Virus record (IMG/VR): IMGVR_UViG_3300044621_002533
Coordinates: 1-31,552 of that record
Length of the DNA: 31,552 nt
Origin: a virus
Reading direction: 5' to 3' (one strand)
The notes beneath the pieces are model-generated. The model saw nothing but the letters and a program-made list of their open reading frames with translations. It ran no database searches and was not told the origin of the DNA. Shown here in pieces: positions 10,955 through 31,552 of this stretch. The translations under genes were made by a program, and so were the position numbers. The first letter of the stretch is position 1, and the number at the start of each line of letters is the position of its first letter.

Positions 10955-11984
10955 GTTGGCGATTTTCCTGTACTAATGCCCAGGCGCGACCAGTGATGAT
11001 CTCGTCTAAGCTGAACTGGCCATAGGCTATGCTACACAACCACGCCATTACCAAGTCTGTGTCTGGTCTATAAGGAGTTTCAATCTTGGTCAAATCATTG
11101 GATGCCACTGGTTCGGCCGCAGTGGGTGCCAACGCAAATGCTGGTATTCCTGCAGCCACTGCTTCCACAGCAGCAATGGAGTTGTAGCACACCACAGCAT
11201 GAATATCTTGTTGAAACGCATCATAGATGGTGTCATTGGTACGCTCTTGACGACCGGCTTTGTCTCTCACAATGATTGGTCTATCAGTATGCTGTCTTAT
11301 GGTGGCTATGGTTGAATCAATCCAGGCCTGACGATCTTGGCCGTAAAATTTAAATGGTTTTTCAGTGTTCAACACCAGCAGTATGTTTTTACCTGGGTGA
11401 CGCCAGCCACGATATCGCAAATAAGGAACGACGTTCCAGAGTTTTTCCAATCTATCAGCTGGCACATTCCAAATTTTTCTATGTTGCATATCATTGCGTA
11501 CTATGCGATGGTAAATTTTTCGGCCTGTGCGATTGTTGGCACTGGGGTAATTGCCCAAGTATCCAGTTTCAATAAAATAAAAATCTCTTTGATTTGTTTG
11601 ACACCACTGTATGACTTTGCCTTTGCTGATGCCTCTGATCAGTACTGAATTTGTGAGCTGATCTCGTTGTTCAAACCAGTCATCGTAGGTCATAAACGTA
11701 CTTTGTGGCCAAGCTGCCATGATCATTGCTGAATAATCACTGAATTTGATAAGACGAAACAGCCGTTCTTCTTTTTCTGTGATCAGCGGAGCCAGACGTT
11801 TGTCTCTTATTTTTTCAACTTTGTCATCGATGCCAGTGATTTGACCTCGGAGTTTTTCCAGCTCAGACATTATCAACAACGCATCGCTGACATTGTGTTT
11901 AAGCGCACTGACCAACGACTGATGTTGTAGTCGGTATTCATCCATGGGCCAACGTTCGACCAATGCCAGTGGTAGTTCAATCAT
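10935..11984 (-). CDS. KpsC/S-like putative glycosyltransferase, paralogue 3, with N-terminal coiled-coil extension
   Basis: 349 aa. The C-terminal half matches the other two paralogues: YRGWRHPGKNILLVLNTEK (like KPWR..G..I), TDRPIIVRDKAG, CYNSIAAVEAVAAGIPAFA and IETPYRPDTDLVMAWL. The 'RPHP' histidine is missing here (IVRDKAG), so the active site may differ. The first ~75 residues are an extra helical segment (KHNVSDALLIMSELEKLRG then ITGIDDKVEKIRDKRLAPLI) with coiled-coil character. It overlaps the GT gene upstream by four bases (11981-11984) and the next gene by 20. Whether it is a glycosyltransferase or a partner subunit is not settled by the sequence. Confidence 0.5.
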   Translation of the reverse strand: MIELPLALVERWPMDEYRLQHQSLVSALKHNVSDALLIMSELEKLRGQITGIDDKVEKIRDKRLAPLITEKEERLFRLIKFSDYSAMIMAAWPQSTFMTYDDWFEQRDQLTNSVLIRGISKGKVIQWCQTNQRDFYFIETGYLGNYPSANNRTGRKIYHRIVRNDMQHRKIWNVPADRLEKLWNVVPYLRYRGWRHPGKNILLVLNTEKPFKFYGQDRQAWIDSTIATIRQHTDRPIIVRDKAGRQERTNDTIYDAFQQDIHAVVCYNSIAAVEAVAAGIPAFALAPTAAEPVASNDLTKIETPYRPDTDLVMAWLCSIAYGQFSLDEIITGRAWALVQENRQREYINC

Positions 11985-12664
11985 GGTAAATTCTGTTGAC
12001 AGTATTCAGTGTAAATTCTTTCACGATGCCATTCATCATTTTGTGGAGTGTTGGCATATTCGTGAAAGCATGGAGTTCCTAGAGTGTAGTGAAGCAGTTT
12101 GGCATTGGGATTTGGGCCATATTCGTCAGGCAACCAGTTCCATTCAGGAGGCAGTTCCTGGATCCTAGCATCTTCTAACCATGTGAATCTATGGAGAAAT
12201 GCCCCAGTGCTGGCCATGACAAATTCAGGAGTTAATTTTCGATTGGGAAAACTGGCACAGTTCCACACAATCACCGAACTCCAATTTTTTCTCGGGTAGT
12301 TTTCGTTTTTGGCACCCATGTATTTTTCAGTCTGTTTGGTTTGATAGTCATGCTTGACCACTGCCACATCTTTGTCAAGACCAAGACTGTTGTACAGTTC
12401 AATGATGTCTCCACGCACTATCATGTCGCCGTCAATGAAGATAGCTCTGCCTTTCCAGCCCATTAACCAAGGCACTAAAAATCTAGTGTAGATAAAATGG
12501 TTGCTGCCATCTGTGTGTGTTTCTTGATAGTCTGAAAACAAATTCAGTGCCACTGGCACAATGGCCACGGGAGCAGAAGCATTGCGTATGATGCTGTTAC
12601 AGCACACATGATAGGCTATGGCTTCTCTGGGATCGTAACCTACAAATACAGGAATGGGTTTCAT
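11981..12664 (-). CDS. GT-A (GT8-like) glycosyltransferase
   Basis: 227 aa. The N-terminus PIPVFVGYDPREAIAYHVC is a GT8-like opening and FIDGDMIVRGDI (77-88) carries the DxD motif (D78-G-D80). The arginine before it (IYTRFLVPWLMGWKGRAI) is typical of this family. LLHYTLGTPCFHEY near the C-terminus resembles the conserved 'HY.....P' metal-ligand segment of GT8 enzymes. Four-base overlaps on both sides (12661-12664 and 11981-11984) place it firmly in the minus-strand operon after the cytidylyltransferase-cupin fusion. Confidence 0.75.
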   Translation of the reverse strand: MKPIPVFVGYDPREAIAYHVCCNSIIRNASAPVAIVPVALNLFSDYQETHTDGSNHFIYTRFLVPWLMGWKGRAIFIDGDMIVRGDIIELYNSLGLDKDVAVVKHDYQTKQTEKYMGAKNENYPRKNWSSVIVWNCASFPNRKLTPEFVMASTGAFLHRFTWLEDARIQELPPEWNWLPDEYGPNPNAKLLHYTLGTPCFHEYANTPQNDEWHRERIYTEYCQQNLP

Positions 12665-13422
12665 CTGCGTTGAATATCATCTTCAACACAGTTTTCACCG
12701 TATTGAATTTCTATCAGTTTCAAAGGTTGATCAGTTTCATTACACAGCATGTGCCATTGCGATTGAGCAATAAAAATATGTTGATGTTGAGTGTATGTTC
12801 CCACAAGGTCATGATCACTGCTGTTGTTGAGAGTGTACACAGCAGCTTCGCCTTCGGCCACAAACCAAAATTCTGCTCGTTTTTGATGTTGCTGCATGCT
12901 CAAACAAGTTTTGGGATTCACAGTGAGCTCTTTGAGTTTGGTGTTAGCTCCCACTTGGTGTACCACGCGATAGTATCCCCAGCTGCGATCAGTTCTAGGT
13001 GCTCGCCATTGATCCAGTATCCAACTGCTGCTGTTGGCTTTGTCTGTGCCGCCCACTGCAAACATAAATGAAACTTGATCATCCTTGATGGACATTTCTG
13101 GCACATTGTTGTGATCGCGATCGCCACCATTGGCAAACACAATTTCTGCGTCGGGCCACATACGACGACATTCTTTTATGGCGTTGATGCTGGTGTTGTC
13201 AGAATCGTCAAATTCAATCACATAGTCCACTGATCGCAAGTTGCTGATAATGCCGGCTCGCTCCTGCCATGACATAAATGGTTGTCCTTTTTTGCGAGTA
13301 AGCCACGCATCAGAATTCAATCCCACTGCCAATTTGTTGCCAAGACTGCGAGCAGAGTTAAAATAGTTCATGTGACCCGAGTGAAGCGGGTCAAAACCAC
13401 CAGTTACAAGTACGATTTTCAT
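12661..13422 (-). CDS. Fused cytidylyltransferase-like nucleotidyltransferase and type II mannose-6-phosphate isomerase-like cupin
   Basis: 253 aa, two domains. Residues 1-~135 are a RfaE2/TagD-like nucleotidyltransferase: GGFDPLHSGHMNYF (8-21) has the HxGH nucleotide-binding motif (H14, H17), and GLNSDAWLTRKKGQP (34-48) matches the 'SD....K.KGRP' motif. Residues ~147-245 form a cupin like the C-terminal domain of GDP-mannose pyrophosphorylase/PMI: SWGYYRVV, LKELTVNPKTCLSMQQHQKR and AEFWFVAEGEA, with metal ligands expected at H179 and E184. The first half would activate a sugar or polyol phosphate with CTP or ATP; the second would isomerise or bind a sugar phosphate. The fusion suggests two consecutive steps of one pathway. 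It is the first gene of the minus-strand operon, directly behind a late promoter. Confidence 0.75.
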   Translation of the reverse strand: MKIVLVTGGFDPLHSGHMNYFNSARSLGNKLAVGLNSDAWLTRKKGQPFMSWQERAGIISNLRSVDYVIEFDDSDNTSINAIKECRRMWPDAEIVFANGGDRDHNNVPEMSIKDDQVSFMFAVGGTDKANSSSWILDQWRAPRTDRSWGYYRVVHQVGANTKLKELTVNPKTCLSMQQHQKRAEFWFVAEGEAAVYTLNNSSDHDLVGTYTQHQHIFIAQSQWHMLCNETDQPLKLIEIQYGENCVEDDIQRR

Positions 13423-13427
13423 AGCGA

Positions 13428-13435
13428 TATTTATA
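13428..13435 (-). promoter_or_regulatory. T4-type late promoter for the minus-strand glycan operon
   Basis: Plus-strand TATTTATA, which reads as a perfect TATAAATA on the minus strand, five bases upstream of the minus-strand ATG at 13422. In T4 this octamer is recognised by the late sigma factor gp55 with the sliding clamp. The distance to the ATG is very short, so either translation is leaderless or nearly so, or transcription starts inside the gene. Confidence 0.5.
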
Positions 13436-13464
13436 GAACTGCCTTTTGCTGGCTAATTAAAAAC

Positions 13465-14280
13465 ATGGACAGGCAAAACCGTGAATGGCGACAGCAACGC
13501 AAAGAAGAATTGAGAGCACTCAAAGCTCAAACACAACCAAAAATTTCAACTGAAAAAGCCAAGCCTGTTGATGTAGTAGATTGTGCCTGTGTGATTCACG
13601 GAGATGCGTACAGTTGGACCTATGTAGAAAAATTGTATAACATGATAGGTCGTAATTTGAATCGGCCTTTTAGATTTCACGTGTACACTGAGAGCAAAAG
13701 AACTGTGCCTGCGCCCTGGATCAAACACGAACTAGAACCTTGGCCAGGGTTTGAAGGTGCCAAACGAGCATGGTGGTATAAGATTCAATTGTTTAATCCG
13801 GCCTATCACAGTGGACCCATGTTGTACTTTGATTTGGACACAGTGATTGTCAACAGCATAGATTGGATACCTCAGCTTTCCACCCAGTATTTTTGGGCTA
13901 TCAAAGAATTCAAGTCCCTGTGGCGTCCCACAATCAACACTGTCAACAGCAGTGTGATGTGGTGGGACACTGCCAAATTTAGCCTGGTGTGGCAGGATTT
14001 TGCTCAAAAAAACATGATCAATATTGCTAGACAATACCACGGAGATCAAGACTATATCAGTGCCAAGATTCATCCCAAACGTCGCAGATTTTTTGATTCA
14101 AATCAAATTCTAAGTTGGCGTTGGCAAGCACATGATGGAGGCTATAATTTTAAAAAAAGAACCAGTAACAACCCAGGTTTAGGAACCAAAATTGACAAAA
14201 CTTGTAGTGTGTTGGTTTTTCATGGACACCCTAAACCGCAGCAAGTTTCTGACCCAGTGATCAACACCCATTGGATTTGA
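13465..14280 (+). CDS. GT-A fold glycosyltransferase
   Basis: 271 aa from the ATG at 13465; the frame is open further upstream, but a start there would overlap the divergent minus-strand operon. After a charged N-terminal leader (about 1-35), the domain begins VDCACVIHGDAYSW. YFDLDTVIV (121-129) carries the DxD motif (D123-L-D125), and SSVMWWDT and HGDQDYISA are typical acceptor-side motifs of phage and bacterial 'sugar transferase' GT-A families. HGHPKPQQ at the end resembles the C-terminal 'FHG.PKP' motif of this family. It is the last gene of the glycan module before a virion-type gene with its own late promoter. Confidence 0.75.
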   Translation: MDRQNREWRQQRKEELRALKAQTQPKISTEKAKPVDVVDCACVIHGDAYSWTYVEKLYNMIGRNLNRPFRFHVYTESKRTVPAPWIKHELEPWPGFEGAKRAWWYKIQLFNPAYHSGPMLYFDLDTVIVNSIDWIPQLSTQYFWAIKEFKSLWRPTINTVNSSVMWWDTAKFSLVWQDFAQKNMINIARQYHGDQDYISAKIHPKRRRFFDSNQILSWRWQAHDGGYNFKKRTSNNPGLGTKIDKTCSVLVFHGHPKPQQVSDPVINTHWI

Positions 14281-17204: not shown

Positions 17205-18068
17205 ATGTTTTCAATATTGCGATTGGTATTTGGACACAAAGCAGACTTTGAACTGAGTTTTCGTATCAAATCTACACCCATAGCTGAACTTTGGGTAGAT
17301 CGAATGGCTAAAAGAACATCATGGCCATTGGATCATCCAGACCGATTCTATGGATTCGGCTCAGAGCAGCAAGAGCGTGATCGAGCACAGATACAAATTT
17401 TACAATGTATCAACACAATAAATGATCACATAAAGATCATAGACAGACCATTTGAATATTCACAGGAGTGTTTGAATTACCTACATCATGTGTTTGAGCA
17501 ATATCATGGATTGTTGGATCAACAGAATACCAAATATTGGCACGAAGCGCCGCAATCAGTTCGCAAAGCATTGGCCGAACTGAATCTGTGTGTTCATCGT
17601 TGTGAAAGTGTAATGCGAGGCAACAGTCCTAGATTGGTCTGTACATGGTTTGGTATGCCCAAAACTCATACATTGGATCGCCAACTTCAATCTACGTATG
17701 GTACCAATCAAATAAGTTTTGGTACAGTGTATCTTAACTATTGCGAAATAGGCAAAACACTTGAGGATCTTGAGTTTGACAACGACCAATACATCAGCGA
17801 TGATGCGTTCATACCTTTCAGTCATTACAGTGCCGATTTCAACATTCAATTTTTTGATTACAATCTAACAACCAAATTTGATAGAATACAAAAATATATA
17901 GATCTACATCACAATTTTTTTGTTGCTCGTGGAATAGAAAGTGTGTATAATGTTCAAGCACAACCATTGCGATTTCCTGTGGCTGAACTTGAATACAACG
18001 GCAATAGGAATGATTTGTTGACCAATCTTGCGTCAAGACAATGGGTACATCAGGTATCACTGGAATGA
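17205..18068 (+). CDS. Hypothetical phage protein upstream of uvsW
   Basis: 287 aa from the ATG at 17205, chosen because an earlier in-frame ATG (17184) lies inside the promoter motifs. No family recognised. The protein is rich in aromatic residues, His and Gln, has no membrane segment beyond a weakly hydrophobic N-terminus (MFSILRLVFG), and shows helical stretches (AQIQILQCINTINDHIKII). It overlaps the uvsW start by four bases (ATGA at 18065-18068), so it is probably translated together with UvsW. It looks slightly AT-richer than uvsW. Confidence 0.65.
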   Translation: MFSILRLVFGHKADFELSFRIKSTPIAELWVDRMAKRTSWPLDHPDRFYGFGSEQQERDRAQIQILQCINTINDHIKIIDRPFEYSQECLNYLHHVFEQYHGLLDQQNTKYWHEAPQSVRKALAELNLCVHRCESVMRGNSPRLVCTWFGMPKTHTLDRQLQSTYGTNQISFGTVYLNYCEIGKTLEDLEFDNDQYISDDAFIPFSHYSADFNIQFFDYNLTTKFDRIQKYIDLHHNFFVARGIESVYNVQAQPLRFPVAELEYNGNRNDLLTNLASRQWVHQVSLE

Positions 18069-19525
18069 AACAGGCCACTATTGTTATCAAAGATGAAGTC
18101 AATATCAAAATAGAAGGATTAGATCTTGACACTCGTCGCGACCTAGTAAAAAAATTCAAATACGATGTGCCCTATGCTAGATACCTGCCGGCAGTGAGAC
18201 TGGGACGTTGGGATGGCAAAGTAGCCTTTTTTCAAATGGGTGGAAGTACTTACACCAACCTGCTGCCCGAAATACTGCCAGTGCTGGAAAGTCAGAACTA
18301 CGACATTGAACTGGACGACCAACGCACATACACCACAACTTTTGATTTCAAAAGTGTGACCGAAGAGCACTGGGCTGATCGATCCTGGCCCACTGGACAT
18401 CCTGCTGCTGGTGAACCTGTGATGTTGCGTGACTATCAGGTAGAGATTGTCAACAACTTTTTGTCCAATCCGCAGTGTATTCAAGAAGTGGCCACTGGTG
18501 CTGGCAAGACCATTATGACTGCCACTCTTAGCGCCGCAGTAGAACCTTATGGCAGATCAATTGTGATTGTGCCTAACAAGAGTCTTGTGACTCAAACAGA
18601 AAAAGACTATCGCAACGTAGGCCTAGATGTGGGTGTTTACTTTGGCGATCGTAAAGAGCACGGGCATCAGCACACCATCTGTACCTGGCAAAGTCTAAAT
18701 GTTCTGCTCAAAAATACCAAAAACGGCACTGCTGCCGACACCATTGGCGACTTCATCGAAGGTGTGGTCTGTGTGATTGTGGATGAAGTACACATGGCCA
18801 AAGCTGACGCACTCAAAAGCCTGCTGACAGGTGTGATGAGTCATGTGCCCATTCGTTGGGGGCTTACTGGCACTGTGCCCAAAGAAGCCTTTGAGTTCAA
18901 AGCCTTACATGTAAGCCTGGGCCCTGTGATTGGCCGACTCACTGCCAACGAACTACAACAACAAGGCGTGCTGGCGCAGTGTCATGTCAACATTGTTCAG
19001 TTGGTAGATCATGTTGAATATACCAACTATCAAAGCGAACTGAAGTATCTGCTGGAGGAACCTGGCAGACTGGATGCTATGGCTGAACTGGTACAGCATG
19101 TAAACGAAACTGGCAACACATTGGTACTGGTTGATCGTGTGGCTGCAGGGCAAGCCTTGGTTCAGCGACTGGGGCATAGAGCAGTATTTGTATCTGGAGC
19201 AACCAAGGCCAAGGACAGACAGGATGAATATGATGAAGTGGCGGAATCTAGCGACAAGATTATTGTGGCGACTTATGGTGTGGCCGCTGTGGGTATTAAT
19301 ATCCCTAGGATTTTTAATCTGGTTTTGGTGGAACCCGGAAAGAGCTTTGTTAGGGTTATACAAAGCATTGGACGCGGAATCCGTAAGGCTGAGGATAAGG
19401 ACCATGTCCAAATCTGGGATGTTACCTCCACGTGTAAATTCTCAAAACGACACTTGACCAAACGCAAGGCTTACTACAAAGAAGCCAACTACCCTTTCAC
19501 TCAGGACAAATTAGAGTGGCAATAA
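18065..19525 (+). CDS. uvsW: UvsW-like DNA/RNA helicase
   Basis: 486 aa, close to T4 UvsW (about 500). It is a superfamily 2 helicase that unwinds R-loops and branched DNA and shifts replication from origin-dependent to recombination-dependent mode. Motifs: Q-motif-like LRDYQ (121-125), Walker A ATGAGKT (143-149), DEVH box (240-243), WGLTGT (motif III) and QSIGRGIRKA (motif VI). The N-terminal ~100 residues with LGRWDGKVAFF match the UvsW double-strand-mimicking domain. The ATG at 18065 was chosen over 18041 because it overlaps the preceding stop. The gene ends 36 bases before the next ATG, with a promoter in between. Confidence 0.93.
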   Translation: MKQATIVIKDEVNIKIEGLDLDTRRDLVKKFKYDVPYARYLPAVRLGRWDGKVAFFQMGGSTYTNLLPEILPVLESQNYDIELDDQRTYTTTFDFKSVTEEHWADRSWPTGHPAAGEPVMLRDYQVEIVNNFLSNPQCIQEVATGAGKTIMTATLSAAVEPYGRSIVIVPNKSLVTQTEKDYRNVGLDVGVYFGDRKEHGHQHTICTWQSLNVLLKNTKNGTAADTIGDFIEGVVCVIVDEVHMAKADALKSLLTGVMSHVPIRWGLTGTVPKEAFEFKALHVSLGPVIGRLTANELQQQGVLAQCHVNIVQLVDHVEYTNYQSELKYLLEEPGRLDAMAELVQHVNETGNTLVLVDRVAAGQALVQRLGHRAVFVSGATKAKDRQDEYDEVAESSDKIIVATYGVAAVGINIPRIFNLVLVEPGKSFVRVIQSIGRGIRKAEDKDHVQIWDVTSTCKFSKRHLTKRKAYYKEANYPFTQDKLEWQ

Positions 19526-20318: not shown

Positions 20319-20751
20319 CAAGCTTAACATTGGCAATGAAATGCGGCAGATGGATCAAAAAAATCGAAGCTTTTTTGATCAACTTACATCTGAAGAAAAG
20401 AAAAAATTTAGCACTTATCTCATGATACGCTGGGGCAGTTGTGTGGATGGCAGTCGCGAATTACAGGAATACTATGTTCACAGTGTCAATCACTATCTCA
20501 ATCGACATTTTTTCACAGTCAGCAAACATCCCAAACTTCAGTGGTTGATGGCCACAGCAGCCAGTCCAGGGCTTGGCACACCCAGGCACAATTGGATCAG
20601 TCCCAAAAAAGCCAAAGCCAATGCCAAGCAAAAACAGTTGGCTTCCCTGTTTCCGCATTTACGCGAAGACGAATTGACTGTGCTGTCAGAAATCACAGAC
20701 AACAAAGATATTGAACAATACAAAAAAGATCTTGGCAATCCTGATCAATGA
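20311..20751 (+). CDS. Possible gp62-like clamp-loader small subunit
   Basis: 146 aa, short of T4 gp62 (187). After a charged start it has KFSTYLMIRWGSCV, YYVHSVNHYLN, KHPKLQWLMATAA, a basic RHNWISPKKAKANAKQKQ and an ending ELTVLSEITDNKDIEQYKKD. This order (hydrophobic N-x-LS-like strand, a helix ending in N, 'K.QYDFL'-like helix, basic KW-like patch, 'LSILT.EQL..IK' end) is what I recall from gp62-family proteins of T4-like phages. gp62 works with gp44 to load the sliding clamp on DNA. Neither gp44 nor gp45 is in the window. The match is by pattern only, so treat as tentative. Confidence 0.45.
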   Translation: MSDKLNIGNEMRQMDQKNRSFFDQLTSEEKKKFSTYLMIRWGSCVDGSRELQEYYVHSVNHYLNRHFFTVSKHPKLQWLMATAASPGLGTPRHNWISPKKAKANAKQKQLASLFPHLREDELTVLSEITDNKDIEQYKKDLGNPDQ

Positions 20752-21422
20752 CGCATCAATGTAAATTTTGTCAAAAAAGTTTTCAAAAAGAAAACTCGCT
20801 GTCAGTTCACTTGTGTGAACCCAAACTGCGTTTTCAACAGCGATCTGAACCAGGTGTAATTTTGGCGTTTCAGGGCTATTTGAAGTTCTATGAATATACA
20901 CAAGGGTCAGCCCGACTCAAAACACACGATGACTTTGATCGCAGTTCTTACTATCGTGCTTTTGTAAAATGGGGACGATACTGTGTGGATGTGCGAGTGA
21001 TAGCACCAGCTAGATTTCTAGAATGGTTGCTGAAGAACAACAAAAAAATTGATCGTTGGTGTTTGGATACTGTGTACACAGAATATCTTGTGGAATATCT
21101 TCGTGTTGAAGCAGTGTCGGACGCACTGACCAGAGCCATTGAATACGGAATTCAATGGGCAGAGCAAACTGGCAATCCTGCGCATGACTGTGTGCGTTAT
21201 GGCAATCGCAACGCTTTGTGTCATGCTGTGACCACTGGTCGAATTTCGGCCTGGGTAATTTACAATTCAGAATCGGGACAGAAGTTTTTGACTGACCTTG
21301 ATCCCACACAGATCAAAATGATTTGGTCTTATATTGATGCTGACATATGGCAAAAGAAATTTGCGGATCGGACCGGAGATCAAGCCTACGCTCAAGAAAT
21401 TTTGGTCAAAGCAGGTTGGTAA
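20748..21422 (+). CDS. Protein with N-terminal C2H2-type zinc finger
   Basis: 224 aa. Residues 4-23 read QCKFCQKSFQKENSLSVHLC, a C-x2-C-x(12)-H-x-C zinc finger (the final ligand is Cys instead of His). The rest is an alpha-rich domain (FVKWGRYCVDVRVIAPARFL; EYLVEYLRVEAVSDALTRAI) ending in helices (DLDPTQIKMIWSYIDADIWQ). Function is unknown. Four-base overlap with the preceding gene. In T4-like phages small zinc-finger proteins act in transcription or endonuclease roles, but no catalytic motif for either is visible. Confidence 0.65.
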   Translation: MTHQCKFCQKSFQKENSLSVHLCEPKLRFQQRSEPGVILAFQGYLKFYEYTQGSARLKTHDDFDRSSYYRAFVKWGRYCVDVRVIAPARFLEWLLKNNKKIDRWCLDTVYTEYLVEYLRVEAVSDALTRAIEYGIQWAEQTGNPAHDCVRYGNRNALCHAVTTGRISAWVIYNSESGQKFLTDLDPTQIKMIWSYIDADIWQKKFADRTGDQAYAQEILVKAGW

Positions 21423-21423
21423 A

Positions 21424-21783
21424 ATGGATCTAATTTTTTCTTTGTTGGTGCTGCTACAAATCAAACACTGGTTGGTAGATTTTGTGCTTCAAACTGATGA
21501 AGAAATACGTTGGAAAGGGCAGTATCTTGACTGGCGCGGGGCCAAGCACAGTGTCAAACATGGAGTGACCACTGGCCTGGTGTTGACAATCATGGGCATT
21601 GATCTGTCATGGGTATTGTGGTTGTCGCTGTTGGATTTTGTGGCACACTATCACATTGACTGGATCAAGATGAATTGGGGCAATCAAGACATACGCACGC
21701 CACAGTTTTGGCAGCATCTTGGCCTGGATCAATTGGCACATCAGTTGACTTACATTGGTATTGTAGCTATAATTCAAATATGA
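21424..21783 (+). CDS. DUF3307-like membrane protein
   Basis: 119 aa. It opens with a hydrophobic helix IFSLLVLLQIKHWLVDFVLQ containing the 'KH..VDFVLQT' motif I associate with the DUF3307 family. A conserved-type HSVKHG follows (about residues 42-47), then membrane helices around 48-75 (GLVLTIMGIDLSWVLWLSLL), then DFVAHYHIDWIK and a C-terminal LDQLAHQ with more hydrophobic residues. The repeated His/Asp pattern is characteristic. The start at 21424 is chosen because it follows the preceding stop by one base. The promoter of the mini-DnaE gene lies inside its 3' end. Confidence 0.65.
   Translation: MDLIFSLLVLLQIKHWLVDFVLQTDEEIRWKGQYLDWRGAKHSVKHGVTTGLVLTIMGIDLSWVLWLSLLDFVAHYHIDWIKMNWGNQDIRTPQFWQHLGLDQLAHQLTYIGIVAIIQI
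21745..21773 (+). promoter_or_regulatory. Sigma70-type promoter of the mini-DnaE gene, leaderless-type spacing
   Basis: TTGACT (21745-21750), 17-bp spacer, perfect TATAAT (21768-21773), then TCAAAT and the ATG at 21780. It lies inside the 3' end of the DUF3307-like gene, so the polymerase-like gene can be expressed independently of its upstream neighbours. Confidence 0.7.
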
Positions 21784-22334
21784 GTGCCGACATTGACATT
21801 GACGTACCAGACAGAGATGCTGTGCTAAAGCTGATACAGCATGTACCAGCACGACTCAGCAATGGACGTCGACACAATTCAGGCATCTATGTTACAGAAA
21901 TTCCCACCGATCCAATGGCGCAATGTGCTGCTATTGATCATGAAACTGCTGAATCGCGTGGATATTTCAAAATTGACATACTGAATATGAGTGTGTACAG
22001 TTTGGTAACCAGCCCTGCTCACTATCAACAAATGCTGGCCACTGAACCTCCATGGTCAAGACTGTGGTCAGATCCAGCTTGGGCATCGCAGTTGGTACAT
22101 GTGGGCAACTACACTGATCTACTGGCAGACATGCGTCCAGACTCAATTACCAGAATGGCTGCGTTTATTTCTGTGATTAGACCAGGCAAAGCACATTTAC
22201 AACGCCAGCCTTGGTCAGAAGTATTTGCTTCGGTATGGAACGGAGATGGTAGTCGCGGGTACTCTTTTAAGAAAAGTCATGCAATCTCGTATGCGGCATT
22301 AGTAACCCTACACATGAATTTAATCAATAAATGA
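21780..22334 (+). CDS. Miniature DnaE-like (C-family DNA polymerase palm) protein
   Basis: 184 aa from the ATG at 21780, against about 1,000-1,160 for DnaE. It carries, in the correct order, the C-family motifs: ADIDIDVP (3-10; D6 and D8 match the first two catalytic aspartates of 'PDxDxD'), RHNSGIYVTE (31-40; 'HAGGVVI' region), GYFKIDILNM (61-70; D66 matches the third catalytic aspartate), MRPDSITRMAAFISVIRPG (118-136; 'L.P......A..RPG') and YSFKKSHAISYA (161-172; 'F.KSHA..YA'). The PHP domain, most of the fingers, the clamp-binding and OB domains are absent. It could be a reduced active polymerase, a processivity or regulatory decoy, or a partner of the larger DnaE at 29950. Own leaderless-type promoter. 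Confidence 0.75.
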   Translation: MSADIDIDVPDRDAVLKLIQHVPARLSNGRRHNSGIYVTEIPTDPMAQCAAIDHETAESRGYFKIDILNMSVYSLVTSPAHYQQMLATEPPWSRLWSDPAWASQLVHVGNYTDLLADMRPDSITRMAAFISVIRPGKAHLQRQPWSEVFASVWNGDGSRGYSFKKSHAISYAALVTLHMNLINK

Positions 22335-22999
22335 AAACTTTATATGTCAATGGCTGTTCTTTTGTATCAGATCATACTGTTAACAATGACAATCTTTATC
22401 CGTCAATTTTAGCAAAAAAATTAAAGACCAATATTGTTAACAAAGGAATGCCCGGATGTTGTAATAGACGGATAATTAGAACCACTGTCAAAGACAGCAT
22501 GTGTTTTGATTCAGATACATTTGTGTTAATATCTCTCACTCAGACAGTGCGAACAGAAAAAAATGTAAGAGAAAATTGGGACCCGCAGGACCCTATGATG
22601 ATTGATGAAGATTTTTTCCAGAGTATAAAGCCAAATACTCAAGACAATCATTTACGACCTTATGGTGATTGGTTTTTAAAATATTTTGATGAAACTGCTG
22701 AAATATTAAATTTGGCAACTGACGTTGTAATGTTGTCGGGCTACTTGAAAAGTTTAAGTGTGCCGCATCTAATTTATAGCCATAGGCCAATGGTCAACAA
22801 TCTAAATCTTCACAATCACACCATCTTGGATTCAATGGTTAAAAGAGCAGAAGTATTGAATTTTTTAAAAACTAATTTTTGTGATTTGATTCAAGCCAAT
22901 CAGAAAGATTTTTATGACGGCATTTATGGCCATTTCAATGAACAAGGACATGCCAAAGCAGCATCTTATCTTGAAAATTTAATCAACTCTTCTCACTAA
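22331..22999 (+). CDS. SGNH-hydrolase-like protein, copy 1
   Basis: 222 aa. It opens LYVNGCSFVSD (block I; the Ser is at residue 10, in GCS instead of GDS) and ends with a block V-like GHFNEQGHAKAASYL. The family is esterase/lipase or acetyltransferase-like, often acting on carbohydrate O-acetyl groups. It looks AT-richer than the surrounding genes and overlaps the mini-DnaE stop by four bases. Its 3' end runs 21 bases into the minus-strand gene at 22979. Two further SGNH-like genes lie at 24463 and 29268. Confidence 0.6.
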   Translation: MKTLYVNGCSFVSDHTVNNDNLYPSILAKKLKTNIVNKGMPGCCNRRIIRTTVKDSMCFDSDTFVLISLTQTVRTEKNVRENWDPQDPMMIDEDFFQSIKPNTQDNHLRPYGDWFLKYFDETAEILNLATDVVMLSGYLKSLSVPHLIYSHRPMVNNLNLHNHTILDSMVKRAEVLNFLKTNFCDLIQANQKDFYDGIYGHFNEQGHAKAASYLENLINSSH

Positions 23000-23356
23000 A
23001 GTGATACTCTTTCTTTTAGACTTCTTGCGGGCAATGTCGGCCAGGCTACACACATGGCCTTGAACAATTTCTAGATCTTTGTTGGCAAAAGTTCGCAGTG
23101 TGGTTCGAAATTCGTCCCACTCGCCGCGTAGAAAAATGTTTATGGGTATGCTGCGATTGGATTCCCACCACCAAACATTGGCCAGTTCTAAAAATCTTTG
23201 TTTGTCAGCACTGGTAACCAGTATGCCAAAATCGTAGATTGTGGTCACCGAGTCGTCACGATTTTGAACTATTCCAACATATTCATTGCTGGCATACACA
23301 CACAAAGTGATAAAAGGATATTTTTCTGCTAATTTTTGTAATCTTGTACTGCCCAT
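22979..23356 (-). CDS. Hypothetical late protein
   Basis: 125 aa on the minus strand, function unknown. The N-terminal half resembles a small beta-rich unit (FITLCVYASNEYVGIV, SVTTIYDFGILVT), followed by a Trp-rich segment (ELANVWWWESNRSIPINIFL) and a basic C-terminus (DIARKKSKRKSITLVRRVD) that could bind nucleic acid. It starts behind a perfect late promoter (23403-23396). I considered RegA (122 aa in T4) by size, but sequence motifs do not fit. It is the only minus-strand gene between the glycan operon and the DnaE gene. Confidence 0.6.
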   Translation of the reverse strand: MGSTRLQKLAEKYPFITLCVYASNEYVGIVQNRDDSVTTIYDFGILVTSADKQRFLELANVWWWESNRSIPINIFLRGEWDEFRTTLRTFANKDLEIVQGHVCSLADIARKKSKRKSITLVRRVD

Positions 23357-24466: not shown

Positions 24467-25203
24467 AATTTAAAAAAATTGTAGGGTTCGGCGACTCGTG
24501 GATGTATGGCGACGAGTTGTTGGATCCAGAATTGCCCAAACGTTGGCCAGATGCTCACAGTTGCTGGACGCAAAATGACCCATATCGACAGACCAATTGC
24601 TTTTTGGGCCTGCTGGGACAACACTATGGTGTGCCCACAGAAAACTTTGGCATAGCTGGCGGCAGCTTACAAAGTTCAGTGTGGACTTATCTATGGTGGT
24701 TTGAACACGAACCAAATCCACAAGACTGTTTGGTGCTGGTTGCGCACACTGACAGCGATAGATTGAGTTTTTACAATCCCAATCATCGAAGCTTTGCCAA
24801 TGATCCTCCGTGGAACAAGTTTGTTCACAGCACCTGGGTTGAGTATGGTAGTTCAGTGGTGCCAGAACCCTTTAGAGATCTCAGCAAACGTCATTTGGTG
24901 CTGACCAATTGTGCCGAACTATGTAGATTGAATTATATTCAAACTGCTATGTTTTTTGATGGTCAAGCTGCCAGGCACAACATACCAATGATGCAATTTC
25001 ACATCATGCCTGCTGATCAAACACTGGATTTACCGACCATGATCTGGCCCAACTTTGCCACCACAATGTGGTTCAGGGATCATCCTGCTAACCAACGTAG
25101 GCAATTGATCATGCCTGGCGGTCATCCCAATGAACAAGGACACAGAATGATCGCAGACAAGTTGATTTCCGCCATAGATCCTGCTATAATGAGAGGATGC
25201 TAG
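24463..25203 (+). CDS. SGNH-hydrolase-like protein, copy 2
   Basis: 246 aa. It opens KIVGFGDSWMYGDEL, a good SGNH block I (GDS at 10-12), has FGIAGGSLQSSVW (block II-like GGS, about 65-77) and a Cys/Asn-containing middle. It ends PGGHPNEQGHRMIADKL with the block V histidines (H221, H227). This is the most complete of the three SGNH-like proteins here. A TATCAT with an extended -10 TG (24448-24456) lies six bases before the ATG. Four-base overlap with the structural gene; the primase promoter lies within its 3' end. Role may be de-acetylation of a surface glycan, or of the phage's own glycan. Confidence 0.65.
   Translation: MKFKKIVGFGDSWMYGDELLDPELPKRWPDAHSCWTQNDPYRQTNCFLGLLGQHYGVPTENFGIAGGSLQSSVWTYLWWFEHEPNPQDCLVLVAHTDSDRLSFYNPNHRSFANDPPWNKFVHSTWVEYGSSVVPEPFRDLSKRHLVLTNCAELCRLNYIQTAMFFDGQAARHNIPMMQFHIMPADQTLDLPTMIWPNFATTMWFRDHPANQRRQLIMPGGHPNEQGHRMIADKLISAIDPAIMRGC
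25162..25190 (+). promoter_or_regulatory. Sigma70-type promoter of the primase gene, leaderless-type spacing
   Basis: TTGATT (25162-25167), 17-bp spacer, TGC then TATAAT (25185-25190), then GAGAGG and the ATG at 25197. The extended -10 and full TATAAT make this one of the strongest in the window. Confidence 0.7.
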
Positions 25204-26165
25204 ACATCCTTGGTTATCTGCCTGTTAAACGCAAACAGACTCCGTCAGGATGGATCAGTTTCAATGCGCCCTGTTGTAATGATCGAAGAAGTCGCGGCGG
25301 TATAAAATTCAACGATCAAAGTTGGACCTATCATTGTTTCAATTGCGGTACCAAAGCTAGCTTTGTATTGGGTAGATCTGTCACATACCGTGCTAGATCA
25401 TTGCTCCAGACTCTCAGTGTTCCAGAATCAGAAATTGAACAACTAAATTTGGAAAGTCTGAGACATCGCAGTGTACATGGTATATTGGATGATCGAATCA
25501 AAACAGCCAATTCAGTAAGCAATATAGAATTCAAAGAATTTGATGACTTTCCGCCAGGCTGTGAGTTGATTACGCCAGAGTTGCCGTTGTATTGGAAATA
25601 TCTCAGAGACCGATGTGTGCCTGAAGATTTTCCAGCCATGACAGCCATAAGAAATGACGGAGTACACTGGACCAGACCATTTGTGCTGATACCATTTAGC
25701 TTTGACAATGCCATGGTGGGCTATACTGTGAGATTTTTGGATAATCGAGCACCCAAGTATATCAGCAACAGTCAACCAGGTTATGTATTTGGAATTGATC
25801 AGCAACACTCTGATTGGCAGTATGTGTTAGTGACGGAAGGCATTTTTGATGCCTTAAGCATAGGTGGTGTGGCTGTGATGCACAACACTGTCAGCGATGC
25901 TCAGGCCAGACTGATTAGAAACCTTGGTCGAGAGATCATTCTGGTGCCAGATCAAGACACAGCTGGTATTGAATTGATTGATCGTGCTTTGGAATTGGGC
26001 TGGTCGGTTAGCATTCCTAATTGGGATACATGTAAAGACGTCAATGATGCTGTGGTAAAATACGGACGTTTGGCAACATTGTTGACCATACTTCAGGCAC
26101 GTGAGACCAGTCGAATCAAAATAGAATTAAGGAAAAAGAGTCTTGTTAAAAAATTACTGTCCTGA
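25197..26165 (+). CDS. 61: DNA primase (gp61/DnaG-type, zinc finger plus Toprim)
   Basis: 322 aa, close to T4 gp61 (342). It makes RNA primers for lagging-strand synthesis together with the gp41 helicase. The zinc-binding domain has C26-C27 and the HCFNCG pair C47/C50. The Toprim catalytic core is VLVTEGIFDALS (210-221, catalytic E214) and ILVPDQDTAG (248-257, metal-binding aspartates). The start at 25197 follows a leaderless-type promoter; GAGAGG immediately before the ATG is too close to be a normal ribosome-binding site. Its 3' end overlaps the radical SAM gene by 23 bases. The helicase follows one gene later. Confidence 0.9.
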   Translation: MLDILGYLPVKRKQTPSGWISFNAPCCNDRRSRGGIKFNDQSWTYHCFNCGTKASFVLGRSVTYRARSLLQTLSVPESEIEQLNLESLRHRSVHGILDDRIKTANSVSNIEFKEFDDFPPGCELITPELPLYWKYLRDRCVPEDFPAMTAIRNDGVHWTRPFVLIPFSFDNAMVGYTVRFLDNRAPKYISNSQPGYVFGIDQQHSDWQYVLVTEGIFDALSIGGVAVMHNTVSDAQARLIRNLGREIILVPDQDTAGIELIDRALELGWSVSIPNWDTCKDVNDAVVKYGRLATLLTILQARETSRIKIELRKKSLVKKLLS

Positions 26166-27231
26166 AATATATCATGGACTGTTTGTTGATCGATGGAACG
26201 ATACACACGTAAGAATCGCGCCGTGCTGTCAATCCCACACAGCCATTGAAGCAGTTGACACGTTTTCTTTTGAAAACAGTCAATACCTTACTAAATTGCG
26301 AAAGGAATTTGATAAAGGAAATCAACCCACAGAATGTCAAAGATGTTGGGACGCAGAAAAGGTGGGATTGAAAAGTCGTCGACAAAGTGCAATTGAATTT
26401 GAAGAAGTCACAGATACACAACTTCAATTACGAGGCTTAGATCACAGTGCTACTTGGGCCTGTAATTCAGCATGTATTATGTGTAATGCTAAAAACAGCA
26501 GTATGTGGGCCAATGAGTTGAATTTTGATAGCGCTAGACTAAATCAAATTGGTAGAAAATTTCAAAAAGGTAACCACTTTGAAACAAAACTAAATTTTAA
26601 ACATCTTAAAAAATTACACTTCAACGGCGGTGAGCCCTTGCTCAACAACGATCATGTTGATCTATTAAAAAAAATTGATCTAAGTAATATTCAGATCAGC
26701 TACAATTCAAACGGTACATGCTATCCTTCAGATCAACTGATACAGCAGTGGCAAAGAGCCAGATTGGTAAAAATATTTTTCAGTATTGACGCAATAGGCT
26801 CGGCTTTTGAATACATAAGATGGCCAGGAAAATGGGAACAAGTCAACCACAATATTTGTTTGTTGAGAGATAATTTCAGTAACTTAATGTTTGGAATCAA
26901 CTTATCCGTTGGCAACTACAACGTACTGGAATTGTCTCAACTGTGGCAGTGGTTCCAAAATACTATTTCTATCAACAAACAAGGAGACCCCAGCGACTTT
27001 AATTGGCAACTAGTAAATAACTTTCCTATTGCGGTCTTGCCTCAAACAATTAAGAATGATGCCATTGACAAACTTGATGGTATTGAACCAATGAATGGAA
27101 TAGCAACAATTCTAAAACAAGAGCACACCATCAATGATGATTGGTATTTGGAGCTTGATAAAATAGATCAACGTCGCGGAACCAACTGGAAAAATAGTTT
27201 GGCCATTGGCAATTACTACAGAAATTTGTAA
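26143..27231 (+). CDS. Radical SAM protein with twitch-type C-terminus
   Basis: 362 aa from a TTG at 26143, preceded by AAGGAAAAAGAG; no ATG is available before the conserved core. WACNSACIMC (about residues 105-114) holds the CxxxCxxC motif that binds the [4Fe-4S] cluster and S-adenosylmethionine, and LHFNGGEPLLN is the following GGEP motif. Extra cysteine pairs lie N-terminal (APCCQSH, CQRCWDAE), the usual layout of phage 'twitch domain' radical SAM proteins. The target of the radical chemistry is unknown; candidates are a nucleoside, a peptide or a cofactor. It looks AT-richer than the primase and helicase genes it separates, which suggests an insertion into the core replication set. Confidence 0.8.
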   Translation: MLKNYCPEIYHGLFVDRWNDTHVRIAPCCQSHTAIEAVDTFSFENSQYLTKLRKEFDKGNQPTECQRCWDAEKVGLKSRRQSAIEFEEVTDTQLQLRGLDHSATWACNSACIMCNAKNSSMWANELNFDSARLNQIGRKFQKGNHFETKLNFKHLKKLHFNGGEPLLNNDHVDLLKKIDLSNIQISYNSNGTCYPSDQLIQQWQRARLVKIFFSIDAIGSAFEYIRWPGKWEQVNHNICLLRDNFSNLMFGINLSVGNYNVLELSQLWQWFQNTISINKQGDPSDFNWQLVNNFPIAVLPQTIKNDAIDKLDGIEPMNGIATILKQEHTINDDWYLELDKIDQRRGTNWKNSLAIGNYYRNL

Positions 27232-27233
27232 AA

Positions 27234-28640
27234 ATGTTAAAAGAATACAACATTGAAGTTCAAAAATTGTTTTTGGAAATGATGCTAGAGGATGCGGCTA
27301 GTTATGTTCGCGTTCAAAACATCTACAATCCAGACAACTTTGATCGCAGTTTGAGATCCGCTGCCAAATTTATCAAAGAACATTCAGACCAACACAAGAC
27401 ACTGCCGGATCGCACACAGATTGCAGCCACTACTGGTGTGAAACTGGAATCTGTGCCCGATCTCAATGAAGGACACTATGAGTGGTTCATGACTGAGTTT
27501 GAGGCGTTTACTCGGCGCCAAGAACTGGAACGTGCTATTCTCAAGTCAGCAGACTTGTTGGAAAAGGGTGAGTTTGAGCCAGTAGAAAAACTGATCAAGG
27601 ATGCTGTACAGATATCGCTGACCAAAGATCTTGGCACAGACTTTTGGGCTGATCCTGAAGGCATGTTTTCCAAGTACTTTGATGCTGGTGGACAGGTCAG
27701 CACAGGTTGGGGGCAACTGGATCGACTGCTGTACGGTGGATTCTCTCGAGGTGAACTTAACATCTTCGCGGGCGGGTCAGGTTCAGGCAAAAGCCTTGTG
27801 ATGATGAACATTGCCTTGAACTGGGTACAGCAGGGCCTACATGGTGTTTACATCACCCTAGAACTTTCGGAAGAGTTAACAGGTCTACGTACAGCAGCCA
27901 TGTTGACCAACATGAGCACCAAAGAGATTCGCCGTGACAAAGAAACAGCAGCTCTCAAAGTGAGAATGGTGGGCAAAAAAGCCGGCAGCTATCAGGTCAA
28001 GGCCTTGCCAGCACAGAGCAACATCAATGACATTCGTGCGTTCTTGAAAGAGTATCAGATCAAGACTGGACACCGGGTGGACTTTATCATGGTAGACTAC
28101 TTGGACTTGCTGATGCCTGTGAGTGCCAAGGTTAGTCCCAACGACTTGTTTGTCAAAGACAAGTATGTTTCAGAAGAATTGAGAAATCTAGCCAAAGAGC
28201 TGGGTATCTTGATGGTCACTGCATCGCAGTTGAACCGATCGGCTGTGGAGGAAATTGAGTTTGATCACTCGCACATATCGGGTGGTATCTCAAAGATCAA
28301 CACAGCAGACAATGTGTTTGGTATCTTTACGTCGCGGGCCATGAAGGAACGCGGCAAGTATCAAATACAGTGTATGAAGTCGCGCTCGTCAACGGGCGTG
28401 GGGCAAAAAATTGACTTGGAGTATAACATTGAAACCATGCGCATTACTGACCTGGCCGAGGACGAACAGTATCAAGAGTTCAAGAAACGAGCACCGTCAA
28501 TCTATGAATCAATCAAGGCCAAAAGCCAGATTGCTCCAGGCGAACCCACTGCCACTGAACCTGACGAGCCAGGCAAAATAACAGCTGATGTGCAATCAAC
28601 TAAGTTGAAGCAGTTACTAGGTAAGATCAAACAAGCATGA
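27234..28640 (+). CDS. 41: Replicative DNA helicase (gp41/DnaB-like)
   Basis: 468 aa, close to T4 gp41 (475). A ring-shaped 5'-3' helicase that moves the fork and partners with the primase. The N-terminal helical domain spans about 1-125. The RecA-like motor has Walker A GGSGSGKS (180-187), Walker B VDFIMVDYLDLL (282-293), a H4-like TASQLNRSAVEE and a C-terminal KSRSSTGVGQKIDLEYN, the arginine-finger region. The C-terminus is charged and Pro/Thr-rich, ending KLKQLLGKIKQA. The stop overlaps the next start by four bases. Confidence 0.93.
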   Translation: MLKEYNIEVQKLFLEMMLEDAASYVRVQNIYNPDNFDRSLRSAAKFIKEHSDQHKTLPDRTQIAATTGVKLESVPDLNEGHYEWFMTEFEAFTRRQELERAILKSADLLEKGEFEPVEKLIKDAVQISLTKDLGTDFWADPEGMFSKYFDAGGQVSTGWGQLDRLLYGGFSRGELNIFAGGSGSGKSLVMMNIALNWVQQGLHGVYITLELSEELTGLRTAAMLTNMSTKEIRRDKETAALKVRMVGKKAGSYQVKALPAQSNINDIRAFLKEYQIKTGHRVDFIMVDYLDLLMPVSAKVSPNDLFVKDKYVSEELRNLAKELGILMVTASQLNRSAVEEIEFDHSHISGGISKINTADNVFGIFTSRAMKERGKYQIQCMKSRSSTGVGQKIDLEYNIETMRITDLAEDEQYQEFKKRAPSIYESIKAKSQIAPGEPTATEPDEPGKITADVQSTKLKQLLGKIKQA

Positions 28641-29281: not shown

Positions 29282-29963
29282 AATTTTCTGTGTAGGAGAT
29301 GGCTACGCCCATGGGCACATCTGGCCCGAATGGCCGCAAATTTTACAGTGTTTGTGTCCAGATCACAAAATAGAAGTTGTATCTGCTATAGGTGCTGGAT
29401 CTGAATTTTTAGTCAGTGAGCTGCTGACAAGGTCGGTTGAAAAAACCACAGTCATATTTCAGTGGCCACAATCTAATCGATTAGATAAGCTTTTGGTGGA
29501 TAACAGTTGGGACACAATTATCGAAAGTGACAATGTATATAGGTCAAATGTATACACAGGGTTGTCTGGAAAGTGGTGGTGCAGTAGCGCCAGTCAAGTT
29601 GCAAGTGTCGTTGCATACCATCAAGATTATATTACACGAGAACAATCTGAACTTAGAAATCGTAACTTTAGAGTCTTAGTTCAGGCCTGGTTAGAAAAAA
29701 AACAAACTACATGGATGTTTACTTCTACGCGAGAACAAGCACAGTACGCACAACAACCGCGATTCAGAGATATTAGAAGTAATGAGGTGCAGCCTCATCC
29801 CATGGTGCATTATTGGTTTTTGGTAGAAAAAATAGCTCCTGCTGTAAATCTCGTGTTTGATCCACAAAGACAAATGATTGTAAAACAAAGGCTTGAAGCT
29901 ATTAACTGGGAACCATATCATCCAGACCGGCAAGAGATGTTAGAATCTATCATGGCAGTTTAA
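29268..29963 (+). CDS. SGNH-hydrolase-like protein, copy 3 (degenerate)
   Basis: 231 aa. It opens FCVGDGYAHGHIWPEW, where GDG replaces the usual GDS, so the catalytic serine may be missing. A SAIGAGSEFLVSELL (block II-like) follows and HPMVHYWFLVEKIAP near the C-terminus resembles block V. It begins inside the preceding gene (14-base overlap), with GGAAAA just before the ATG. The 3' end overlaps the DnaE gene on the other strand by 14 bases. Codon use and AT content resemble copy 1. The lost serine could mean a binding rather than a hydrolysing role. Confidence 0.55.
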   Translation: MSMNKIFCVGDGYAHGHIWPEWPQILQCLCPDHKIEVVSAIGAGSEFLVSELLTRSVEKTTVIFQWPQSNRLDKLLVDNSWDTIIESDNVYRSNVYTGLSGKWWCSSASQVASVVAYHQDYITREQSELRNRNFRVLVQAWLEKKQTTWMFTSTREQAQYAQQPRFRDIRSNEVQPHPMVHYWFLVEKIAPAVNLVFDPQRQMIVKQRLEAINWEPYHPDRQEMLESIMAV

Positions 29964-31552
29964 GATAATCATCAATGTCCACAGCAGATATGTCTTTGCG
30001 GTCCACTTGTAAAAACTGCGAACCATCTCGGCTGTAACGTCGACCCTGCCCCACAATAACCGAACCATTTGAGTATTTGACAGGTCGATCCACAATGAGG
30101 TCTACATATTCGCCTTCGCCCACACCCAGGGTGATAAAGTGAATGTACTGCTGCCGGTCACGTCGGAACACTCGGCTGTTGGCTACAATTCCGGCAAATT
30201 GATAGTATTCTGAATACAGACTTTGTACGCCCATGCCGGGCAAGAAGCCGGGAGAGTTCCAGGCACCGTGTTCCTTAAAACTTTCTACAGGATCTTCAGT
30301 GATCCAGTTGTCGAAGCCCAGTTCACGCAGGTCCCAACCTGCTCTTTTGGCTTCGTTGCGATAAACCCAACGAGCATATGAACCTTGGCAGTGCATGAGA
30401 GCTGCTCGCCAAAACTCGCGAGGATTGTGGGCCTTTTGATAGGCCAAGGCCCAGATCAGCCTGCCAAGATTCACAGCATGAGCACGACACAAGCCAAAGC
30501 CTGACAGGTTCAACATCTCCCTATAAATGTCGTCTTTCAGGGGATGATCGCCCAGTCGGTTCATGAACTCCATGACTTTTTCTTCGTTCTTTTTGGCAAA
30601 CGCACGACGATACATGTCAGCTTCGTATGCGTTGACCCCAATTAGTTTCATGATGCGTTCTATGGCATCGTCCTCGCACACAATGGCACGTTCTTTGGTG
30701 CCTTCGGCAGTCCAGTCACGAAACCAAGCTGCCTTGCGCCGACCTTCCATGGCCACAGGCCGCACCAGTGCAGTGGCAAACACACAATCAGCAACGGACG
30801 TTGGCTTGATGGCTCGGAACAGCCGCCGCATGGCTGGTGATTCGCCTTGTGTAACACCCAACACATCACCACGAGCCAGCAGGTCTGCTGTGGCTTCGTC
30901 TTCGGTGGGATATTCGTGTATCATGCGTGTGGGGTCAATTTCCATGAGCTGGCTCAACCCACGATTGGCCAAGATGTCTACTTTGAGGTGTTCTAGATCT
31001 TCAACTTCGTTTTTGTCCAGCAGGATAAGATTGTCTTCGCGGAACAGGCTTTTGGGTAGCTGACGATCAAACACAATCACACCGCCGCAGTGTTTGCTCA
31101 AGCAACGTGTTTTGCCCATGAGCTTTTTCTCTATGCGGCGTGCTTCAGTTTCGTCCACACCCAGTTTCTTGTAGTCAATTTCTCGAGGCAAGCGCCCTCG
31201 AGCACCCAGTCTACGTGCTGCTTCACGACGTGCTGACTTTTCTTTGTATAGCACATAGTTGGATATTCGGGCTGTGCGTCCGGGCCAAGCGTCAAATATA
31301 CGCTGCATGGCCAGTTCTTGTTTGTGATGTGGCACATCAATGTCCACGTCAGGCAAGTCATCACGCAGGGGATTGAGAAAGCGAGCGAAAGGTATGTTCC
31401 ACTCTATGGGATCCACATCAGTGATACCCATGAGATAGCACACCAAGCTAGAGCCTGCTGATCCACGAGTCATGTGGGGAATGTCCGAGTTGAGATCCAG
31501 CACACGCCGGATTTTGAGAAAGTATTCTGTGAAGCGTTGAGCTACTATTACT
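29950..31552 (-). CDS. dnaE: DnaE-family DNA polymerase III alpha subunit, C-terminal part (5' end outside window)
   Basis: Reading on the minus strand, the frame stays open to the window edge, so the N-terminus (expected PHP domain) is missing. The visible ~534 residues contain the C-family core in order: a TRGSAGSSLVCYLMGITDVD match to the 'GRGS.AGSLVAY.LGIT.VDP' motif, FARFLNPLRDDLPDVDIDV (palm aspartates at about 31344 and 31338), KHCGGVIVFD, HLKVDILANRG (third aspartate at about 30976-30978), an RPVAMEG region, then CRAHAVNLGRL with AYQKAHNPREFW equivalent to 'KSHA..YA......YP.EF'. The C-terminus looks OB-like. This is probably the replicative polymerase. T4 itself uses family B gp43, so this is a notable replacement. 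Confidence 0.88.
   Translation of the reverse strand, partial: VIVAQRFTEYFLKIRRVLDLNSDIPHMTRGSAGSSLVCYLMGITDVDPIEWNIPFARFLNPLRDDLPDVDIDVPHHKQELAMQRIFDAWPGRTARISNYVLYKEKSARREAARRLGARGRLPREIDYKKLGVDETEARRIEKKLMGKTRCLSKHCGGVIVFDRQLPKSLFREDNLILLDKNEVEDLEHLKVDILANRGLSQLMEIDPTRMIHEYPTEDEATADLLARGDVLGVTQGESPAMRRLFRAIKPTSVADCVFATALVRPVAMEGRRKAAWFRDWTAEGTKERAIVCEDDAIERIMKLIGVNAYEADMYRRAFAKKNEEKVMEFMNRLGDHPLKDDIYREMLNLSGFGLCRAHAVNLGRLIWALAYQKAHNPREFWRAALMHCQGSYARWVYRNEAKRAGWDLRELGFDNWITEDPVESFKEHGAWNSPGFLPGMGVQSLYSEYYQFAGIVANSRVFRRDRQQYIHFITLGVGEGEYVDLIVDRPVKYSNGSVIVGQGRRYSRDGSQFLQVDRKDISAVDIDDYLKLP

Follow-up and report, generated by a model that had tools for sequence, protein, structure and literature searches.

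A mini protein of T4-like jumbo phages as the probable C-terminal part of a reduced DNA polymerase III alpha core divided over two genes

Introduction

What purpose could a phage have for a protein that carries the catalytic motifs of a bacterial replicase in about one sixth of the usual length? This question is raised by an open reading frame of 184 codons (21780-22334, plus strand) in the IMG/VR virus record IMGVR_UViG_3300044621_002533, of which the whole stretch of 31,552 nucleotides was analyzed (hereafter the window). An initial annotation, made from the sequence alone and correct in the position and length of this frame, considered the product to be either a minimal polymerase or nucleotidyl transferase, or a partner or decoy acting on DnaE or the clamp. 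It further took the gene for a second, reduced copy of a larger DnaE in the same window, equipped with its own promoter, and suggested profile and homologue searches as well as a test for purifying selection at three aspartates.

A similar arrangement has been described before. For group 2.2 jumbo phages, Iyer et al. (2021; PMC7824862) reported Pol III alpha in a ‘phage-specific minimal version’, which consists of two proteins from distant loci: an N-terminal one that binds NTP and a C-terminal one that binds Mg2+ and the template. The pair, which is devoid of PHP, OB and any further Pol III domains, occurs beside a family B polymerase and was suggested to perhaps serve one strand or repair; phages with the split version were said to carry no other Pol III domains (PMC7824862). 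The split Pol III is not mentioned in the review ‘The biology of jumbo phages’, and no biochemical study of it was found in the open-access literature. The split DNA polymerase of phage MIJ3 is a different case, namely a family B enzyme with an intein.

Results

The product of the open reading frame is a derivative of the C-family polymerases (Pol III alpha), as had been proposed from its motifs. Among the PHROGs it matched phrog_11778 (‘DNA polymerase’; 197 positions in PHROGs v4) over residues 3-183 with an E-value of 1.7e-48, a full-length match that provides a family name only, while phrog_405 and other DnaE-type families gave weak matches over the last motif. Pfam and PDB searches with the single sequence yielded no match, so the relation to Pol III has to be regarded as remote; it was reached only by profile or fold searches. 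A profile of 39 homologous sequences aligned with residues 509-642 of E. coli DnaE at an E-value of 2.8e-4 (hhalign). The best AlphaFold2 model calculated from the 39-sequence alignment had a mean pLDDT of 88 and a pTM of 0.78 (lower-ranked models: 65-68), and a Foldseek search of the PDB with this model returned Pol III alpha chains on all of ranks 1-15 (best match: E-value 7e-4, probability 1.00), followed by noise. According to the model, the protein is predicted to carry the palm fold. In the following it is referred to as the C-unit, as it appears to comprise the metal-binding half of a split palm together with a shortened fingers region.

The homologue search (tblastn) found the C-unit in 65 annotated phage records of INPHARED, mostly from jumbo phages, with 30-42% identity over nearly the full length. 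These include PA5oct, Paride, Phosso, Atu_ph07, RaK2, 121Q, GAP32, Munch and CBB, and the protein is labeled in such records as ‘hypothetical protein’, ‘putative membrane protein’ or ‘DNA polymerase’. In IMG/VR, at least 595 stretches encode a C-unit.

All five motifs named by the initial annotation are present and follow the order of the C-family (DnaE residues are numbered as in E. coli; all positions are on the plus strand). In the first motif, ADIDIDV (residues 3-9; 21786-21806), A3-D4-I5-D6-I7-D8 aligns with P400-D401-F402-D403-V404-D405, both by motif and via fused DnaE-type proteins, which places D4, D6 and D8 at D401, D403 and D405. RHNSGIYV (residues 31-38; 21870-21893) corresponds to ‘GKHAGGVVI’ of DnaE (about 509-517) and stands directly after the excised thumb. 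GYFKIDIL, MRPDS..RPG and FKKSHA align to 553-557, 624-641 and 756-761, respectively. Within these, K64-I65-D66 (21969-21977) contains the equivalents of K553 and D555, R134-P135-G136-K137 (22179-22190) corresponds to R639-P640-G641 of ‘LVALFRPG’, and F163-K-K-S-H167 (22266-22280) to F756-H760. In models of Pol III alpha (DnaE), H760 serves as the steric gate, and the residue is reported to be invariant in this enzyme. As D4 and D6 match D401 and D403 in the motif alignment, the metal pair of the C-unit is most likely D4 and D6, complemented by D66 in the position of D555. The catalytic residues had initially been named as D6, D8 and D66, of which D66 was placed correctly and all are invariant, whereas the pair has to be moved one step earlier. 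In the predicted structure, D6 and D8 lie in the strand formed by residues 5-9 and D66 in that formed by residues 65-69.

With the bacterial enzymes (DnaE of E. coli, Thermus and Mycobacterium) the C-unit thus has the palm aspartates, the K553, RPG and H760 motifs and their order in common. It differs in its length of 184 instead of 1160 residues and in the lack of PHP, GRGS segment, thumb, most of the fingers, clamp-binding region, OB and C-terminal domain from its chain; the absence of the PHP, clamp-binding and OB regions, which had been noted before, follows from both the length and the alignment to E. coli DnaE. The thumb (about 421-507) is missing between C-unit residues ~24 and ~30, and a second gap, which lies between RPGK and GYSFKKSH, removes about 100 finger residues (about 645-745).

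Such large deletions relative to DnaE would also be found in a decaying remnant of a DnaE gene. This explanation is rejected by the pattern of conservation, and we see next to no chance of it being correct. In a set of 145 distinct homologues, taken from the tblastn matches with no motif filter (144 of them full-length), D4, D6, D8, K64 and D66 are present in 145 of 145 sequences, and R134, P135, K137 and H167 are invariant in all 144 full-length rows, even though the most distant members share only about 31-36% identity. The codons at the catalytic sites vary synonymously among relatives (GAC/GAT, AAA/AAG, CGN/AGA), dN/dS between relatives ranges from 0.06 to 0.18, the frame is intact in all relatives examined and the synteny described below is fixed across diverse phages. 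Purifying selection at the aspartates is thereby evident: the protein is a real C-family derivative under strong selection at its catalytic positions.

The GRGS segment was looked for in the 184-residue chain and is absent. It is encoded elsewhere. The larger, fused DnaE of the window matches the PHROG families 13169, 7513 and 11127, the profiles of which end just past the GRGS region, and a search with these three families revealed a gene that ends just after GRGS in Paride, Phosso, Atu_ph07, RaK2 and one IMG/VR genome (G001). The product of this gene (hereafter the N-unit) is about 160-200 residues long, typically ~170. In 88 of 88 motif-matched loci its stop lies 33-35 residues past the G of GRGS, and its C-terminus always reads EFLK/R or EFIK/R with up to two further residues (EFLN in Phosso). 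The distance from G361 to N393 in E. coli DnaE is likewise 33 residues. Alignment with DnaE (hhalign) covers residues 320-393 with an E-value of 2.5e-6. The AlphaFold model of the N-unit reached a moderate pLDDT of 76, with residues 29-55 poorly predicted, and 16 of its 18 Foldseek matches in the PDB are Pol III alpha or PolC, none of them below an E-value of 0.001. The conserved arginine of the DnaE ‘ERFL’ motif (R390 in E. coli) is a glutamate in the N-unit. A gene for a GroES-like co-chaperonin is a close neighbor of the N-unit gene in several phages (loci L088-L092), and in Paride and RaK2 a gene for an RFC-like clamp loader is also found nearby, both as judged from translated open reading frames.

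The two proteins are complementary. The N-unit ends at the match of N393 and the C-unit begins at about M399 (of 142 distinct C-unit sequences, 140 have their start codon 2-8 codons ahead of the first aspartate), which puts the break at E. coli residues 394-398. It is thus the palm that is divided, with the nucleotide-binding segment on one side of the break and the metal-binding strand on the other, and a complete active site is present in neither half alone. This bears directly on the idea of a self-sufficient miniature polymerase that works without any N-unit. The three metal aspartates are indeed united in one chain of 184 residues that was modelled confidently on its own. However, the GRGS segment, which is needed by every DnaE, sits in a separate gene that ends where the C-unit takes over, is conserved and co-occurs with the C-unit gene almost without exception. 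A self-sufficient enzyme, one of the options of the initial annotation, is accordingly not supported and appears very improbable.

The co-occurrence was found in both databases. INPHARED contains 65 records with a C-unit and 62 with an N-unit; among the matches listed, 59 of 60 C-unit records also have the N-unit, the exception being PP728206, a partial record of 109 kb. From IMG/VR, records with a length of about 300 kb or above were picked by the presence of either unit or of the large DnaE, and 17 of 17 (G003-G005, G009, G010, G019-G030) contain both units. Shorter IMG/VR fragments often contain only one, as expected, and one record of 286 kb (G007) has an N-unit and no C-unit. Genes of one lineage co-occur anyway, which limits the weight of these counts. 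A family B DNA polymerase was found in 12 of 12 relative genomes tested. The window itself, a fragment of 31.5 kb, contains neither a family B polymerase nor an N-unit. It can be assumed that the genome of the window phage does encode an N-unit, judging from the near-complete relatives G009 and G010, which have one and also carry the large DnaE.

The gene for the C-unit is part of a T4-like replication and recombination region, in which genes for SSB, UvsX, UvsY, a UvsW-type helicase and members of phrog_11279, phrog_11758 and phrog_11058 are followed by the mini gene, phrog_11637, primase and DnaB. The UvsW-type helicase (18041-19525, plus strand) is encoded on the same strand in 118 mini-bearing loci, the DnaG-type primase with its Toprim domain (25197-26165, plus) in 140 and the DnaB-type replicative helicase (27234-28640, plus) in 119. 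A radical SAM protein (PF04055, phrog_14086; 26143-27231, plus) is encoded between the latter two. The phrog_11058 protein p224 (20748-21422, plus), which has a C2H2-like N-terminus below the Pfam cut-off, precedes the mini gene in 165 of the 195 loci that match the mini protein and is a possible partner and candidate third subunit. A convergent gene for a 125-residue protein of the unknown family phrog_11637 (22979-23356, minus) lies just downstream in 188 of 195, a placement that spans very diverse jumbo phages; in the window, an open reading frame of 222 codons with weak similarity to DUF6071 (22331-22999) lies between the two. The window also harbors a block of sugar-metabolism type (7156-14280) between recombination and replication genes, with two matches to nucleotide-sugar epimerases, a heptose kinase/adenylyltransferase-like protein and a glycosyltransferase.

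The mini gene overlaps with both neighbors in an ATGA, with the upstream stop at 21780-21783, consistent with operon coupling, and with the next start at 22331-22334 (both plus strand), and is for this reason probably translated within an operon. The promoter ascribed to it could not be substantiated. The match of the form TTGACT-17-TATAAT (21745-21773) belongs to the coding sequence of the upstream DUF3307 gene and is retained only where this gene is present; promoter-like matches in the region are also fewer (7) than in shuffled sequences (mean of 9.4).

An operon of replication proteins would also suit a non-catalytic partner or decoy, that is, a Pol III fold which binds the host or phage polymerase, the clamp or the fork, and it is doubtful whether a protein deprived of its thumb and most of its fingers could synthesize DNA on its own. 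Yet a scaffold needs none of the metal aspartates, K64, R134 or the steric-gate H167, all of which are invariant, nor would it require the GRGS half to be kept as a separate, invariant gene. In addition, the DnaE regions which bind the clamp, tau and epsilon are absent from the mini protein. Because metal site, lysine and steric gate are invariant, catalysis with dNTPs is favored over a decoy, which we regard as unlikely. A somewhat lower probability is assigned to a template-independent nucleotidyl transferase for end-tailing or modification, rebuilt from N- and C-unit. A thumbless Pol beta-like core from which most of the template-holding fingers are gone would be compatible with such an activity, but PDS...RPG and FKKSHA, which in Pol III alpha pack around the newly forming base pair, are retained, the dNTP steric gate is invariant, and the genomic setting is one of replication and recombination, not of RNA repair.

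The larger DnaE of the window is real. It is encoded on the minus strand at 29950-31551, where 533 residues of about 566 are visible (PF07733 and PF17657), as the window end cuts off only about 33 residues at the N-terminus. The protein lacks a PHP domain and contains a GRGS-like motif, PDVDIDV, KVDIL and a histidine at the position of H760. Its gene and the mini gene are separated by 5-8 kb and run towards each other in all 19 loci whose flanks are long enough. The near-complete relatives G009 and G010 contain this fused DnaE, N-unit, C-unit and family B polymerase, whereas many genomes (G001, G003-G006) have the mini protein and the N-unit without a large DnaE, and LR756508 has the fused DnaE without the split pair. 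To call the mini gene a second, reduced copy is therefore misleading, as it constitutes its own family in many phages without the larger protein; an origin from the large DnaE of the window was rejected as a general explanation. PHP-less DnaE-like proteins of phages, such as the fused DnaE of the window or the ‘DnaE-like DNA polymerase III alpha’ of Streptomyces phages, are phage-encoded C-family polymerases like the C-unit, but each combines GRGS, thumb and fingers in one chain, whereas the mini protein amounts to half a core.

Discussion

The homology to Pol III alpha, the complementary split, the conservation of catalytic residues, the co-occurrence and the synteny are all direct observations. 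With a probability of roughly 70%, the 184-residue protein represents the C-terminal part of a strongly reduced Pol III alpha core that T4-like jumbo phages encode in two pieces, and the heterodimer of N- and C-unit acts as an auxiliary dNTP nucleotidyl transferase. The C-unit would supply the three metal aspartates, the motif lysine, the RPG element and the steric-gate histidine, and the N-unit, which is encoded tens to hundreds of kilobases away in relatives, would contribute the nucleotide-binding GRGS segment. Both may assemble to a thumbless, dNTP-specific nucleotidyl transferase of low processivity. Most likely it would synthesize short stretches of DNA during recombination, repair or fork restart, in proximity to UvsX/UvsY/UvsW, primase and DnaB, with the family B enzyme presumably performing bulk replication and the split Pol III being auxiliary. 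As thumb and fingers are missing, processive synthesis is disfavored, and with about 100 finger residues gone besides the thumb, it is also uncertain whether synthesis by the split Pol III is templated. The initial interpretation therefore stands in so far as the protein is a C-family derivative under selection, but neither as a self-sufficient minimal polymerase nor as a reduced copy of the larger DnaE.

As PMC7824862 already described the split minimal Pol III, the 184-residue protein is a new member of this family only. Like the C-unit of Iyer et al. (2021), it is short, stands alone, starts at the DxDxD strand and ends in F-K/N-K-S/A-H, and near-complete relatives of the window likewise contain a separate GRGS N-unit and a family B polymerase. 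Unlike in their set, a fused PHP-less DnaE of ~566 residues is present in the clade of the window and in G009 and G010. This coexistence of a fused DnaE with the split pair makes the clade an exception to the 2021 description and is apparently new. It appears conceivable, with the odds somewhat against it, that the chains of ~170 and 184 residues form a thumbless C-family polymerase of ~355 residues, and that this split mini Pol III is one of three DNA polymerases with divided tasks in a single phage, next to the family B enzyme and the fused PHP-less DnaE.

Should the two halves indeed make up a working enzyme, this would be a natural split polymerase of far smaller size than the known Pol III alpha enzymes. 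It would reveal which portions of the bacterial replicase, with its 1160 residues, nucleotide addition can do without. The presence of fused and split Pol III in one clade departs from what was described in 2021, and with the split Pol III occurring in phages that infect common laboratory hosts (relatives of RaK2, 121Q, PA5oct and Paride), the question of its activity and role that was raised then becomes directly testable.
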